In this document: piece by piece, positions 18,667 through 36,533 of the stretch
Layout of the letters: every line of letters begins with the position of its first letter
Numbering within the stretch: position 1 is the stretch's first letter
NCBI GenBank assembly: GCA_026929865.2
Contig: CM049418.1
Location: 6,595,501 to 6,659,500 of the forward strand
Direction: 5' to 3'
Origin: Hyperoplus lanceolatus
Lineage: Eukaryota; Chordata; Actinopteri; Uranoscopiformes; Ammodytidae
DNA: 64,000 nucleotides
Position numbers and translations under genes: made by a program
Notes under the pieces: model-generated
Database searches by the model: none
Told to the model about the DNA's origin: nothing
What the model saw: only the letters and a program-made list of their open reading frames with translations

Positions 18667-18788
18667 AGGTGTAGTTAACAATTCTGGACTTCCCTTGTTC
18701 CAGGTAGCTGATCGTGAGGAGATATTCCCTGATTTTGACAGAAAGTGATTTTGACAACAAGCCTTCTCCAGAATCGCTGACTCCACCT
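18667..18788. mobile_element. TTAA-flanked miniature inverted-repeat transposon, short copy
   Basis: The 122-bp element is flanked by TTAA at 18663-18666 and 18789-18792. The left end reads AGGTGTAGTTAACAATTCTG and the right end, on the other strand, AGGTGGAGTCAGCGATTCTG, so the ends are imperfect inverted repeats. It shares the internal phrase GATCGTGAGGAGATATTC(A/C)C with the longer copy at 23443-23770, which shows they are one family with an internal deletion here. TTAA duplications fit Kolobok- or piggyBac-type transposition in trans. It has no coding capacity. Confidence 0.8.
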
Positions 18789-18997
18789 TTAATGCACCGA
18801 ATGACCACATGTTTAAGACACACACGTGCAAGTTTGGAAACAAAGTTTCCCCGAGACTGAGAATATGTATCTGCCTGTCTACATGGTAAATGGGGCCACT
18901 TTTTTAAAACCCATTCCTCCATTAGCAGCACCAGCACCTCTCACTCCCCTAGTTTCCACACACACACCAAAGGCCATGGAGCTGCCATGTAAGACCA

Positions 18998-22645: not shown

Positions 22646-23442
22646 AGTCAAATTCATGTTACTCTTTCCCAGTTAACTTTCACACCCTGTACCTTGATAA
22701 CAAAAAACTAAACTCCACCATTTTACATCATCAAATACTCGTATGGAAAAGTAATTGTATATAGAGTGTGCTCCATTCCCTTCATGTAATAAAAGGCAAT
22801 GGGGATGCAGTTTGGAGGACCAACAATCTAAATGGAATCTGGTAGTTCCCCCTTAAACGTTTTCCTCGCAGGCCTTACTCTCCATGGAGCGGCTGATACG
22901 GCTCAGACAGAATTGAGGATAAAGTTCAGCAATGAGGGAGAATTCTTTTTGTTATACTCTCTCAGTCGCAGTTGATGGCCATTCTCTCATACATGGTTGG
23001 CTGCCGTTTACTGGGGCGTATTGCCTCCAATGTCTAATACTATTCACCGATGACAAAGCTGGTATAGTTAATTTGACTCATCACTCACTTTGACTGACAG
23101 TATCGCGTCTGTCACATCTGAACCAAATACAGAATGGGTTTGGGATGATTAAGAGACAGGCAGAAATGTACGGCAAAAGCTAAAGGCAAAAGGTTCATGA
23201 ATCGGGGCGGGTCCCTCTCCTCCCTAGAGTTGTTAGGCTTGTCAGAATCATTCAGGGCTGACTGAACAGGACTACCAGGTTAAAGCCCAGGAGGACCCAG
23301 TGGACCAGAGCTCTCTGTATGAAGGGAATGAGTTAGCATTTTTCTCACTTGGAAAGTGAAATAAATGACTTGTAAGAGACACAAAACAACCACAAAGTGA
23401 TGCATAATAACCACAGGAGACATAATTACTATTTGGCATTAA

Positions 23443-23770
23443 AGGTGGAGTCAGCGATTCAGGAGAAAGCTTGTTGTCAAAATCACTTTTAGTCAAAATC
23501 AGTTAATATTTCCTCACCATCTGCTACCGTACTGTCTGTGCGCTGTAATAAAAAAATCCAGTGTTAATACACACCCTAGGCTCCGTAAACTTGTATGTAA
23601 ACAAACGGGGCTCTACGTAGCTAGTAACATATCAGTTTACAGAGCCTAGGCTGTGTATTTACTATGGATCTTTTTCACAGTACGAACAGGTAGTGGATCG
23701 TGAGGAGATATTCACCGATTTGCACAAACAGTTTTTTTGAGGACAAGAATTTGAATCGCTGACTCCACCT
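23443..23770. mobile_element. TTAA-flanked miniature inverted-repeat transposon, long copy
   Basis: The 328-bp element lies between TTAA at 23439-23442 and 23771-23774. Both termini begin AGGTGGAGTCAGCGATTC when read inward, an 18-bp perfect inverted repeat. A second inverted pair sits inside: CCTAGGCTCCGTAAACT at about 23575 faces AGTTTACAGAGCCTAGG at about 23634, so the transcript could fold as a nested hairpin. It is the longer relative of the element at 18667-18788. TTAA target duplication suggests Kolobok- or piggyBac-like mobilisation. No open frame of note. Confidence 0.88.
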
Positions 23771-23774
23771 TTAA

Positions 23775-24655
23775 TGTGTTCCACAAACAATGTTACCAGC
23801 AATAATGTACAGTTCATCGCTGCAGAAAACAAGGGCTTGAAATGTGATTCAATATTTTACTCATTACAAATGTGCCCCACTCTGACCCCCATACAACAGA
23901 TTTGAAGTTTGCCTCTGTTCTTGAAGTGGGAAAACATTGAATGCAAGGCTGCCTCCACTTTGCAAGGTAAGGTCACGTTCCCCTGATGTCAAAACGTGGA
24001 AGACATTCATTTGTTTTCTGAACTCTAACCCCCTCTATAATACATGCTTAACCTTTCCTCTTCTGGGGAAAAACATAAATCTATCAAAAAAGGGCTTCAC
24101 ATTAGACCATTTCATTTTTCTGTGTGTTCTAATGGACCCCATTTCAAACATAAATGTCACACTCACACAGAAGCACACACAAGCAAATCATAATCATCGA
24201 TTTGAAAGAAAAAAATCAAATCTGTTATGACATAGTCAATTTCTTCTGCTTTTTCTTTCACTTGGTGTGTCCGTCAAAAATGGAAACAGAGGCTGGGTTA
24301 TATCATTGTCCCCTGGTTAGCACTCTGCTCTAGCTCTGAGGCAATGATCCATGACACAAATGATTCATGAGAGCGTGACATGTAATGTTTTATATTGCTG
24401 CAATGAAACTTTTATAAATGTCACCCAAAAAGAAAGAGAGAGAAAAAAACGTCAGGATTTCCAGGCAGAGCAGTGCTATTTATAGATGTAGATACTAGAG
24501 TGAGGGCTGGGATTGGGTGAACCTGGGCAAATTATTGATAGGAGATTTTGCTGTAATACAAAAGAGCCGCTTTATGTAAAAAGGTATTTCCAAGTAGAAG
24601 GATATCAGGAGTCGCACGCAGGGTCAAACACCCAATGTCACACATGAGTTGTATC
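23775..24655. other. Noncoding stretch, no gene supported
   Basis: Chance open frame at 23937-24230; otherwise AT-rich sequence without repeats that I could delimit. Confidence 0.55.
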
Positions 24656-32556: not shown

Positions 32557-32585
32557 CCTATAGGGGAAGGTGGGGTGATTTGTGC
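32557..32585 (+). repeat. Left terminal inverted repeat of the ~4 kb transposon
   Basis: Perfect 29-bp reverse complement of 36505-36533. Contains one copy of GGGGTGATTTGTGC. Confidence 0.93.
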
Positions 32586-32929
32586 ATTTTGGAAGTTGCA
32601 AAACCCCTTGTTTCTAGAAAACCGTGGAAGAAATTGGAAATGTGACCACATATTTAAGAAGAGCCATCCATTTGACTCATCCTGTAAAGAAGGGAGACAC
32701 AAGGAATAAGATATAAGCACATTTAAGCTCAAAAAACTGTGTTTTGCCTTTCAAAGTAAAATTTCCATGATCAAGGTTTTTTGATTATTGTGTCTGAACA
32801 ATTATAGACACGTTTGAAAACATTTGACACATGTTTTAGTGCTTTGGTATGCTACACTTTGAGTCTATATAGTTAGCACAATGTCAACCCTAAATTGCTG
32901 CATCATGCCTATTATCCAAAATTCTGGGG

Positions 32930-32946
32930 ATGGGGTGATTTGTGCG
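32930..32946 (+). repeat. Subterminal copy of the 14-bp transposon motif
   Basis: GGGGTGATTTGTGC followed by GC, in the same orientation as the left terminus and about 360 bp inside it. Repeated subterminal motifs are typical transposase-binding sites; that role is inferred. Confidence 0.75.
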
Positions 32947-32965
32947 CAAGGGCCTGGGTGAGTTA

Positions 32966-33145
32966 TAAGTAAGTAAGTAAGTAAAATGTATTTATAAAAG
33001 CACATTTATGACAGTTTGCACTGTCCAAAGTGCTGTACATAGTGCATTCAGTAGGTAAACAATGAAGGTAAAATAACAATAACCAAAATAAAAGACGTAA
33101 AGCCCATACATCCACATAAACACAGATAGTAGTGCAGAGGTAAGT
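32966..33145 (+). repeat. Retroelement-like dispersed repeat, left part (split by insertion)
   Basis: Begins with a (TAAG)n run, then AAAATGTATTTATAAAAGCA, TTTGCACTGTCCAAAGTGCT and GTACATAGTGC. This phrase order resembles a dispersed fish repeat ('tatagcacatttca...caaagtgctttaca'). Its continuation appears at 35983-36150, where GGGTTTTGAGCCTTGATTTA, AAGGCAGAAATG, GTTGGTTCCACAAGCACGGA occur in the order I recall for that repeat. The two halves are separated by the 33146-35982 insertion. Confidence 0.55.
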
Positions 33146-33196
33146 ACAGGCATGCAAACTCATAAGCCATGAAAAAGGTGAGCAGTCCAAAAACAA

Positions 33197-33300
33197 ACCC
33201 CGGTAGGGAGGTCTGGGGGCATCCCCCCTCCCCCCCAGAAGATTTTTTTTGTGATTTGAACATTTAAGAGAAGCAATTTGGTGTATTCTGGTGAAGAGAA
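33197..33300 (+). repeat. Direct repeat A, first copy (GGGG-tCTGGGGGCAT... segment)
   Basis: GGTCTGGGGGCATCCCCC, then CCAGAAG, a T/A-run, and GGTGTATTCTGGTGAAGAGA. It aligns in order, with divergence, to 34408-34503. Both are in the same orientation inside the 2.8 kb element. Confidence 0.6.
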
Positions 33301-33465
33301 TTGAGGATAAAAAAAACCTTGTCAGATGAATAGTGAAATGAGCAAAACAAGTTAGTCAGCCTACCTTCTTGACGTTTACAAAGTGTGTAGGTAGCCTATT
33401 TACTAAGAAAAACGTTAAAAATAGCTTAGAAAAACGGTTAAAAATGCTGGCAAAACCAGCTTTAA

Positions 33466-34071
33466 AGAGGACCTATTATACTACTTTTCTGGTCTTAATT
33501 TCTTGTTTTACACTGCTATAGAGCAACCTGACACGAATCACATCACAACAAACTATGTAGATTTTCGGGAAGCTCTTTCTCTTATTTTGGCGATCCAGCA
33601 CGTCCTGTCAACACTTGAGTGTGTGTGCTTCGGGCATCTCCGCTCCCTCCGCCTGTGCTTCGGCGATCTCCGCTCCCCCCCCCTCCCCCCCCTCCTGCAA
33701 ACCCCACTCCGTTGTGATTGGTTACCTTCCTTCCGGAACACTTTCAGTGGCGGGAAGCGCGAGCATGGACCTATAAGGGCGCGAGGCAGACGCGAACAGG
33801 GAAGTGACAGCATTACCATACATGGAAACATCCGCGTGGTGACTTCACAAAGTTTTATGCGACGTCACAAATTATGAAAGGGTAGACCGTGACTTCTCGA
33901 CTGGCTAGAATAGTGTTTAGTGCTCTGCACAGACACCCCAGACGGTCAGCAGGGAATATGTCGAAATGCATGTAAGTCATTATTTGATAATTTAGTATGG
34001 TTAAGCATGACTATGAATCATCATAACAACGTTCATAGGTCATTAAAGTCAAAAAGCATCATAGGTCCTCT
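33466..34071. mobile_element. TTAA-flanked miniature transposon (AGAGGACCTAT ends)
   Basis: 606 bp between TTAA at 33462-33465 and 34072-34075. Left end AGAGGACCTATTATACTACT; right end, other strand, AGAGGACCTATGATGCTTTT. These ends match a common fish family ('agaggacctattatg') that I associate with Kolobok-like elements. The interior has a GC-rich part with a local duplication (GTGCTTCGG-CATCTCCGCTCC repeated near 33627 and 33655) and a C-run at 33675-33692. An open frame at 33503-33877 lies wholly inside and has no transposase features, so it is not annotated as a gene. Confidence 0.85.
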
Positions 34072-35337
34072 TTAAATAAGACAGAAAATAACATGGAGCC
34101 TCAAATCAATCACACCAAATTCCCTTACAATAAACTAACTATTTATATTGTGGCAAACAGGATTTGCCTTATCTTTACACAACCATCAATATAACACATA
34201 AGAATACACTCTGTCACCATAGTTACTCTCGTGTTCACGCACTCACACACGCGCACGCACACACTTCAGTCGTGCGCAGGAACTTAATGGTGCAAAATGG
34301 GATGTTGAATGAATGTTTGGGGCGGAGGGCTCGGCCATTATTAGGCTACCAGTTCAGACTAACCAGTCTAATGACCTATAAGGAGACTGAGGTGGGAACC
34401 CTGGACCTTGTAGGGGGGTCCGGGGGAATGCTCCCCCAGAAGAAAAAAATGCAACCTTTTAAAGTAAAATTCATCAATCTGGTGCACTTTGAGAAGAAAA
34501 TTGCATGCAACCAGGCCCAGGGGCCCAAGGGGGCCCTAAGCCAGAAATACTGATAGTAACTTTACATGTCACATTGTCAAAGAGCTCAGTCACTCATGTC
34601 AATAACAGGGTCCAAAAAGGAATCGCCTAATATAAGGAAAGAAATCATCATGGGCCCCTCAAATAGTAGGTGAATAATAGAAAAGCAAGTGCAAAACTAA
34701 AGCATTATTAGCTCTGTCTTAGGGGGTTCATGAGGGGCCTTGAAGGCCCCCTCACACATACAGTAATAAGCTTTCTATGTGTAAATTCTATACTGTTCAT
34801 AAAAAGTAGCTATCCACCCTTTATCTGTTGAATAGGGATAGGGAGGAGTGGGGCAGAGGGAGGGGGCTTTAAGAGTCTTTCCACAATATTGTTTTCTATG
34901 TTCGTGGTGAGCATGCACAAGCATTATTTATTTTAAAAAAAAAAAGTGGGGGGCCCCACACTGGGTCTTGAAACGGACCCCGAGATCGTTGAGACCGCCC
35001 CTGCCCGCTGCACTTTCTATCTGCCCGGCCCCGCTCGCCTCTCCATTGACAATGCATTAGTTGGCGCAACAAATGCCTCGGCCCGTGTGAAACGGCCTTA
35101 ACTACTGAACGAAGGAAATCAAATGAGGTTTTGGCATACCCCCCCCCCAAAAAAACGGGACAAATTGTGTCCCGGGAGAGATTTATTTTTTCCCGGGACA
35201 GCGGGTGAAAAAAGACAACAATTCTGGGAAAAACGGGACGGGTGGCAACACTAGTAGGCATATTAACACGGTAAAATAATAGTACAGCGGCTGCGACTAC
35301 TTGAACGCTCCGATGACTCCGAGAGAAGAAAATATTA
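34072..35337. other. Interior of the 2.8 kb inserted element, no gene supported
   Basis: Includes the second direct-repeat copy, a small hairpin GGGGCCTTGAAGGCCCC near 34735-34752, and repeated CCCGGGA/CGGGAC words at 35150-35245. A 160-codon minus-strand frame (34896-35378) crosses low-complexity runs and the start of the first foldback element, so it is read as a chance frame. Confidence 0.55.
34408..34503 (+). repeat. Direct repeat A, second copy
   Basis: TGTAGGGGGGTCCGGGGGAA, TGCTCCCCCAGAAG, an A-run, then CTGGTGCACTTTGAGAAGAA. Diverged counterpart of 33197-33300, same orientation. Confidence 0.6.
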
Positions 35338-35496
35338 GCCTCGTTCGACTTACCCAGGTCTGAGCAAGACCTGCGCAACTATGACGCGCGTCTTGCTGAG
35401 CGCACAACAAAAATGCTGCAAAAATGCTGTGCGCTCAGCAAGCCGAGCGTCATAGTTGCGCAGGTCTTAGCAAGACGGCGACATCTCAAACGAGGC
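35338..35496. mobile_element. 159-bp foldback miniature element, copy 1
   Basis: Almost the whole element is one inverted repeat. The left end GCCTCGTTCGACTTACCCAG mirrors the right end, which reads inward GCCTCGTTTGAGATGTCGCC. The inner arms GCTGAGCGCACA and TGTGCGCTCAGC flank a short A-rich loop near 35405-35428. TA dinucleotides abut both ends (35336-35337 and 35497-35498), matching TA target duplication of Tc1/mariner-type elements. A second hairpin, AGGTCTGAGCAAGACCT, is nested in the left arm. Noncoding. Confidence 0.88.
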
Positions 35497-35498
35497 TA

Positions 35499-35633
35499 TT
35501 AACTTTCCTGCAGACGCTCTGACTGACTCATGTCACCGCCCCTCAATGACAAACACTGTTTCTGATTGGCCAAATGACCGTCACAGCTCATATGATAGGA
35601 GTTAACATGCGTCAATCATAGTTAGTTAGTCTA
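35499..35633. other. Spacer between the two foldback copies
   Basis: 135 bp of non-repetitive sequence containing TTCTGATTGGCCAAATGACC. No feature supported. Confidence 0.5.
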
Positions 35634-35635
35634 TA

Positions 35636-35794
35636 GCCTCGTTCGACTTGCGCAGGTCTGAGCAAGACCTGCGCAACTATGACGCGCGTCTTGCTGAGCG
35701 CACAACAAAAATGCAGGAAAAATGCTGTGCGCTCAGCAAGCCGAGCGTCATAATTGCGCAGGTCTTAGCAAGACGGCGACATGTCGAACGAGGC
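35636..35794. mobile_element. 159-bp foldback miniature element, copy 2
   Basis: Same length and orientation as copy 1, with about seven differences counted by eye (for example GACTTGCG for GACTTACC, and CATAATTG for CATAGTTG). TA flanks at 35634-35635 and 35795-35796. The ends GCCTCGTTCGAC are a perfect 12-bp inverted repeat in this copy. Its own TA duplication at a different site supports independent insertion rather than local tandem duplication of one insertion with flanks. Confidence 0.9.
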
Positions 35795-35982
35795 TACTAT
35801 GATCACTCCATGTCCATGCTCCGCTCCACACACCCACACACAAACAGTGCTGGCCATCAGACCCCACGCCTCCCCCCCTCCAAAAAATATTTTCTCAACG
35901 GATCTCCACGAATCACATAGATGGCCAATTTCGTTTCCAAAACGGCGAATTTCGCCGAAAGGTGACGAGTTTGCATGCCTGT

Positions 35983-36150
35983 AAGTAAGTAGTGCAGAGG
36001 TTAATGGGGAGGAAACACCAGGGTGTACATATGGGTTTTGAGCCTTGATTTAAAGGCAGAAATGTAGGGGGAATCACATTTGTCAGGTGGCAGTTGGTTC
36101 CACAAGCACGGAGCAACTAGTGCAAAGTACATTTCTGAGAGTTGTGCCAG
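35983..36150 (+). repeat. Retroelement-like dispersed repeat, right part
   Basis: Continuation of the repeat starting at 32966, after the 2.8 kb insertion. Key phrases are GGGTTTTGAGCCTTGATTTA (about 36030), GGTGGCAGTTGGTTCCACAA (about 36086) and GCACGGAGCAACTAGTGCAA. The right border with the host transposon is uncertain. Confidence 0.5.
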
Positions 36151-36154
36151 TGGC

Positions 36155-36304
36155 ATGGCTGTATACGCTGGTCACCAAAAGAAAGTGATAGTCTACAGTA
36201 GCTCAGGAGAGAGTGACATCTCAATTCCACTTAACGACACCACTGATGAGAGTTCAGATGGCCAGAAAGATGATGATGGTGACTTTGTCATTGTGACACA
36301 ATGA
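36155..36304 (+). pseudogene. Transposase-like C-terminal remnant of the ~4 kb transposon
   Basis: 49 codons from ATG to TGA. The composition shifts from basic (HQKK) through serine-rich to a strongly acidic tail, DESSDGQKDDDGDFVIVTQ. The frame also runs upstream to 36080 through repeat sequence, with a stop at 36065-36067, so no authentic start is claimed. It ends one base before the subterminal palindrome, where a transposase gene would be expected to end. The GDFVIV ending recalls C-termini of pogo/DDE-1-type transposases, from memory only. No DDE residues are present; the rest of the gene is missing. Confidence 0.35.
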
Positions 36305-36341
36305 CGCACAAATCACCCCACTACGTGGGGTGATTTGTGCG
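36305..36341. repeat. Perfect 17-bp-arm palindrome made of two facing 14-bp motifs
   Basis: CGCACAAATCACCCCAC, spacer TAC, then GTGGGGTGATTTGTGCG. Both arms carry GGGGTGATTTGTGC, the motif of the transposon ends. It begins directly after the stop codon of the remnant frame. It could be a transposase-binding site or a hairpin terminating or processing the transposon transcript; both roles are inference. Confidence 0.9.
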
Positions 36342-36504
36342 ACAAGACAACTTTTTTTCCGAAAGCTATATTTCTTAAACAGTTTATTCCAGATCCAAAG
36401 TTTTTATTGCCAGGGATGCACAACATCCTGAAATATATGTACATATTTGAGTTGGAGACATAACTGTCAAGGCCTCACTTTAAAATCACTTTGAGTAAAA
36501 AGTT

Positions 36505-36533
36505 GCACAAATCACCCCACCTTCCCCTATAGG
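36505..36533 (-). repeat. Right terminal inverted repeat of the ~4 kb transposon
   Basis: Exact reverse complement of 32557-32585, carrying the fifth copy of the 14-bp motif. Confidence 0.93.

Follow-up and report, generated by a model that had tools for sequence, protein, structure and literature searches.

A transposon nest of Hyperoplus lanceolatus, very probably assembled in part before its layers met

A 64,000-nucleotide stretch of the Hyperoplus lanceolatus genome (C24:6595501-6659500; hereafter the window) holds, at 32561-36529, a nest of mobile elements. All of its parts are of known, ordinary kinds: an outer element of about 1.12 kb, a piece resembling the end of a long interspersed nuclear element (LINE), a 2.8-kb element referred to here as layer 3, and, within layer 3, a TTAA-flanked miniature element and two foldback elements. 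A first-pass annotation had placed every one of these features to within about a dozen bases, and had read their nesting as an order of arrival. The nest is very probably a fresh copy of the outer element that received a single, already loaded cut-and-paste insertion, and was in part pre-assembled. Nesting is a valid clock for the entry of layer 3 into the outer copy. It is inapplicable at this locus to the LINE-like piece, and for the TTAA element it runs backwards, since that element was inside layer 3 by the time layer 3 reached the outer element. The evidence consists of copy counts, empty sites, target duplications, the sharing of inner insertions between copies, and divergences, all read directly from the genome searched (806.7 Mb in 527 contigs). 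The parts are indeed distinct mobile families, as annotated, with copies elsewhere in the genome. The features of the nest are as follows.

32561-32562, no strand: left TA target dinucleotide, found before the left end in 38 of 38 copies
32563-32586, plus strand: 24-bp left terminal inverted repeat of the outer element, matching 36504-36527 perfectly in inverse orientation
32587-32964, plus strand: left part of the outer element, with the 14-bp motif inside it at 32932-32945; closes with GAGTT (32960-32964)
32965-33146, minus strand: 3' part of the LINE-like piece, with a (TAAG)n tail; the left TAAGTA makes up its final 6 bases; relatives empty of the piece are L050-L056
33141-33146, no strand: left TAAGTA of the layer-3 target duplication; outer elements lacking layer 3 have it once
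33147-35981, no strand: layer 3, 2.8-kb non-autonomous hAT6-like element plus inserts; 15-bp perfect ends; seven other copies
33466-34071, no strand: TTAA-flanked Kolobok-like element; present in C13 and C9, single TTAA in L005-L009
35338-35496, no strand: foldback 1; among the seven other layer-3 copies, in C13 only
35636-35794, no strand: foldback 2; absent from all seven
35982-35987, no strand: right TAAGTA of the layer-3 target duplication
35988-36138, minus strand: LINE-like piece, 5' part; short C-terminal frame 36004-36171 on the minus strand
36139-36503, plus strand: right part of the outer element, comprising GAGTT, the end of a frame (up to 36301) and a motif palindrome (36302-36344)
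36504-36527, minus strand: outer right terminal inverted repeat; inverted match, with genome copies of the end
36528-36529, no strand: right TA target dinucleotide, found after the right end in 37 of 38 copies

The outer family and its age

The outer ends, annotated as perfect over 29 bp, form a perfect 30-bp inverted repeat (32557-32586 and 36504-36533), composed of 24 bp of the element's own ends, which start with GGGG, the TA target, and a 4-bp chance agreement in the flanks; the annotated bounds, 32561 and 36529, fall on the outer base of each flanking TA. This pair is the longest exact inverted repeat of the window (arms at most 8 kb apart, low-complexity pairs removed), and the longest inverted repeat within 6 kb reached only 13-18 bp in 20 copies of the window simulated with an order-1 Markov model. 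A 14-bp motif, GGGGTGATTTGTGC, is present in five exact copies, every one within the outer parts, the expectation for the whole window being 0.36 at up to two mismatches. The right outer part is traversed by a frame that ends at 36301; the first pass had mentioned neither the motif nor this frame.

Across the genome the 23-bp outer end is found, exactly, 1,924 + 1,920 times (reversed control, 0 + 0), and the possibility raised in the first pass that no other copy ends at 32561/36529 is set aside by about 1,900 other copies. Among the first 100 listed places of the outer end, 94 pair up as 47 inverted pairs and six are single; 46 of the pairs measure 1,072-1,134 bp, and the remaining one 5,466 bp. 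When the left outer part served as query, the best 40 of 88 candidates were scored and all came to 100% (rounded), as expected of a best-first list. Two sets of copies were read. One (L012-L029) consists of all 18 copies in one search whose halves flank the layer-3 position; having been chosen as the window's closest matches, they favor similarity to it. The other (L030-L049) consists of 20 of the 47 pairs, all on C1, picked only by exact ends and length, with lengths mixed on purpose. The TA junctions were counted over 38 rows (17 + 20 + the window), the single exception, at a right junction, being L035.

An alignment of 37 outer copies, without L048 and without L025, which lacks an end, dates the window's copy. 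It shows 0/1,124 substitutions against the column majority; most of the 37 lie within 1% of that majority, and several are identical over all 1,124 bp. Among 19 C1 copies the pairwise difference averages 0.83%, with a maximum of 2.3%. There is thus little doubt that the outer family is a young, non-autonomous, TA-targeting DNA transposon of about 1.12 kb, with about 1,900 copies as counted by exact ends. The identity of the outer ends, which the first pass had correctly seen and set against their supposed age, is to be expected of so young a copy. Gene conversion from other copies might have made an old outer copy look young, and about 1,900 near-identical donors are available for it, but the low divergence of most aligned copies fits a recent burst, and both halves of the split copy would have to be converted without loss of layer 3; this explanation is very unlikely.

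In its TA target duplication and 24-bp perfect terminal inverted repeats the outer element agrees with the Tc1/mariner-pogo (ITm) elements, and a transposase of Tc1/mariner or pogo type would be what moves it. Terminal inverted repeats of at most 40 bp are described for most pogo families (PMC7386202). The resemblance to non-autonomous members of the group extends to the TA target, terminal repeats shorter than 40 bp and high copy number; unlike ITm elements, the outer element combines GGGG starts, five exact motif copies and a LINE-like end carried aboard.

Several individual copies deserve mention. The 5.47-kb end pair, L048 (C1:9267900-9273800), was rejected as an autonomous copy; it is an outer copy interrupted by a different, roughly 4.3-kb insertion at the position corresponding to window 36204-36209, with the 6-bp repeat CAGGAG, and other outer copies are thus also being struck by further elements. 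The six unpaired C1 ends (L060-L065) included no autonomous element, being outer copies with the second end changed, shortened or missing. At L074 (C14, DDE_1 match 4697257-4697592) an outer copy stands beside an open 378-residue DDE_1 frame, which it does not enclose, in what looks like a chance neighbourhood, and at L022 (C21:25520900-25523200) a young outer copy is joined directly to the right end of an outer copy that is older and more divergent. A start of the outer element with CTATA was rejected, since the C1 copies show only TA, the first 18 copies having been ranked by length of match to the window; an 8-bp, P-element-like palindromic duplication was discarded on account of this ranking bias.

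Layer 3 and the inserts it carries

Layer 3, annotated at 33146-35982 with 16-bp ends, is present at 33147-35981, its perfect ends measuring 15 bp (17 bp with the flanking TA); its 21-base right end has 91 + 77 exact matches in the genome. It is a separate insertion, with TAAGTA duplicated around it, and it is absent from all 18 of the outer copies L012-L029. Each of these aligns in one piece, at 94.7-100% identity, with the LINE-like piece in, layer 3 out, and a single TAAGTA; both outer ends are exact in 17 of them, the exception being L025. The junction between outer element and layer 3 has a single match genome-wide at up to three mismatches, namely the window (control, 0), and there is therefore no sign that the two moved together.

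The inserts, by contrast, are shared in part with layer-3 copies at other loci. Seven other copies were read, namely C13, C9 and L005-L009 (L010 and L011 are C13 and C9 again). The window differs from C13 by 6/2,668 substitutions and 4 gap runs, from C9, outside the inserts, by 33/1,858 (1.8%), and from L005-L009 by 67/1,877, 74/1,874, 80/1,861, 101/1,846 and 87/1,863. Gains of inserts track this relatedness: the TTAA element is found in C13 and C9 but not in the five others, foldback 1 is found in C13 only, and foldback 2, the youngest inner insert, is found in none of the seven.

The minimum age of the TTAA element in layer 3 was taken as half of the C9 difference outside the inserts, or 0.89% per lineage. 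For an outer copy as old as the split from C9, the probability of 0/1,124 substitutions is 4.5e-5, and a Fisher test with half of the differences assigned to the window lineage gives p = 0.0005, both tests assuming equal neutral rates in the outer part and in layer 3. The outer copy is too young for that age, and the TTAA element was therefore in layer 3 before the outer copy took its present form, which overturns the claim that the outermost ends are older than everything inside. The alternative is two independent entries of the TTAA element into the same layer-3 site, one in the C9 lineage and one in that of the window and C13. The family is abundant, and per base the C9 and window elements differ from each other (17/613) more than their surroundings do, which leans slightly towards separate entries; against them, the element has the same site and the same orientation in both, and C9 is also the nearest copy after C13 outside the inserts (33/1,858 versus 67-101/~1,860). 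Double entry is accordingly a highly improbable account.

The TTAA element and both foldbacks lie exactly where the first pass had put them. The ends of the former are complementary at 20 of 22 positions, with AGAGG termini and TTAA on both sides, and TTAA plus the element end has 1,106 + 1,127 exact matches in the genome. Its TTAA target, purine-purine (AG) ends and five empty copies with a single TTAA are those of a Kolobok-type element, for which a TTAA target and terminal AG are described (PMC6004289); the likeness to Kolobok-type miniature inverted-repeat transposable elements (MITEs) such as T2-MITE is one of target and terminal AG. The two foldbacks are identical at 158 of 166 positions, and have long arms that span nearly their whole length (79% and 81% complementary) and dispersed copies, as expected of foldback elements; a 29-bp probe has 29 exact copies in the genome, that of foldback 2 included. 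In the 13 that were read (11 fetched, two in the window), TA lies on the left of 12, on the right of 12, and on both sides of 11. Foldbacks lie close together in pairs, at a distance of 298 bp in the window and of 306 bp on C20 (C20:1423004 and C20:1423310, L089), and at L092 one lies against another foldback-like end; such pairs may hint at local hopping or self-targeting.

The CAGG...CCTG ends of layer 3 are taken here to be hAT-like, and a hAT transposase presumably moved it. Exact 6-bp duplications flank the window copy (TAAGTA), C9 (TAAGTT), L005 (CATAAT), L008 (TACAAT) and L009 (ATTTAG). Duplications of this length are those of hAT6, described as hAT elements with 6-bp target duplications in the title of a report cited in PMC12730594; unlike hAT6, the layer-3 copies read contain no transposase, and the assignment is one of ends and duplication length. 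Dada elements, which insert into small RNA genes and are without terminal inverted repeats (PMC3706591), were considered for layer 3 and rejected, given its 15-bp perfect ends and a target that is here the LINE-like piece; the window contains no transfer RNA or Rfam match. Two tracts of layer 3, 33203-33303 and 34410-34503, are weakly related (60% over ~100 bp, E 0.066) and are possibly a duplicated part.

The LINE-like piece and the order of events

The LINE-like piece spans 32965-36138 and is bounded by two copies of GAGTT; the retroelement-like repeat annotated at 32966-36150 is thus present, with a right edge placed 12 bp too far. It has the anatomy of a LINE insertion, with a truncated 3' end, a (TAAG)n tail and a GAGTT target duplication, and from this anatomy and from a likeness to LINE C-termini it would be a LINE end. 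It is too short to hold a reverse transcriptase, and it matched no Pfam family; a search of its frame against viral contigs gave 20 pattern matches, none confirmed.

Empty sites were sought with a 25-base pattern in which both flanks are joined by one GAGTT. At up to three mismatches it matched 33 places (control, 0), of which ten were fetched: seven relatives (L050-L056) have an uninterrupted site with a single GAGTT, L059 is a rearranged relative without the piece, and L057 and L058 are LINE-bearing variants. The seven are about 79-93% identical to the outer parts (pieces of at least 40 bp), far less than the amplified outer family, and are therefore much older than it. The LINE-like piece inserted into yet another, imperfect version of the motif, which reads GGGGTGAGTTGTGC in five of these relatives. 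It is a true insertion, and it predates amplification of the family. As it is found in 18 of 18 outer copies, outer element and LINE-like piece are one element, and not, as the annotation had it, the products of two events at this locus. It is conceivable, though doubtful, that the LINE insertion converted a waning lineage of TA elements into a burst, possibly one still under way.

The order of events is very probably the following. An older TA element received the LINE-like 3' end before the family amplified, yielding the 1.12-kb unit; the young family then amplified, the window holding a fresh copy. Layer 3, already with the TTAA element and probably foldback 1, landed in this copy and duplicated TAAGTA, and foldback 2 arrived in the window copy or in its direct donor. 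The empty sites called for by the first pass exist for all of the inner parts: there are relatives without the LINE-like piece, outer copies without layer 3, and layer-3 copies without the TTAA element and without either foldback. Constancy of inner parts between copies, which the first pass took as a mark of components rather than insertions, holds for the LINE-like piece in the outer element and for the TTAA element and foldback 1 in C13, the closest copy of layer 3.

Several observations weigh against this account. The 6-bp duplication of layer 3 is exact in only five of eight copies, that of C13 agreeing at 5/6 bases (CCATTT/CCATTG) and those of L006 and L007 not being exact, and the left flank of foldback 2 lacks two bases of the empty site. 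An outer copy as old as the split from C13 would have zero substitutions with probability 0.28, and C13 might descend from the window copy, so that the age test would fit an arrival of foldback 1 on either side of the landing. C13 presumably does not descend from it, and foldback 1 was probably inside layer 3 before the landing. Finally, no autonomous outer partner is enclosed in outer ends among 23 DDE_1 loci, 22 of which have no outer end (17-mer, up to three mismatches), the loci having been read about 1.5 kb to either side, with wider flanks and other DDE/transposase families not searched. Construction of the nest in place from the outside in (outer element, LINE-like piece, layer 3, then TTAA element and foldbacks) has in its favor coordinates that nest cleanly, an empty site somewhere for each layer, and the chance that foldback 2, possibly foldback 1, arrived in place, but it is already refuted for the LINE-like piece, which is in 18 of 18 outer copies, and for the TTAA element, which is common to the C13 and C9 copies at other loci and implies an age for which the outer copy is too young; as a whole it has almost no probability left.

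Further searches returned little. The element ends matched nothing among viral contigs, apart from one match to the TTAA-element end (L001) that agrees over only ~20 bp and is taken as chance, and the outer end matched nothing among prokaryote genome contigs. Six end fragments of 14-16 bases were unmatched in literature text, which does not cover Repbase, so the families have possibly been described. Ten frames matched no Pfam family, and the right outer frame had no match in PDB. Elsewhere in the window, exact 21- and 25-bp inverted repeats at 18742-18795, 23436-23489 and 23752-23776 perhaps mark another mobile element.

Nesting as a clock

Nested repeats are widely treated as a clock, with the inner one taken to be the younger; in REANNOTATE, an element inside a long terminal repeat (LTR) element has its age bounded by the nesting (PMC2672092). 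The same source describes INVADER1 inside COPIA2, a case in which the inner repeat entered its host before the host multiplied. The present nest resembles INVADER1/COPIA2 in that the nesting is shared by copies, insertion having preceded multiplication. It differs in that INVADER1/COPIA2 multiplied in tandem, whereas here the loaded element transposed into a third, younger element. The rule that the outermost element must be the oldest fails at this locus because a loaded cut-and-paste element jumped in.

The sister copies of layer 3 are thus a counterexample to nesting as a clock, since the cut-and-paste element came with an older insertion inside. The locus is also a lead to a very young family of ~1,900 copies, each of which offers other mobile elements a fresh target that can be dated.

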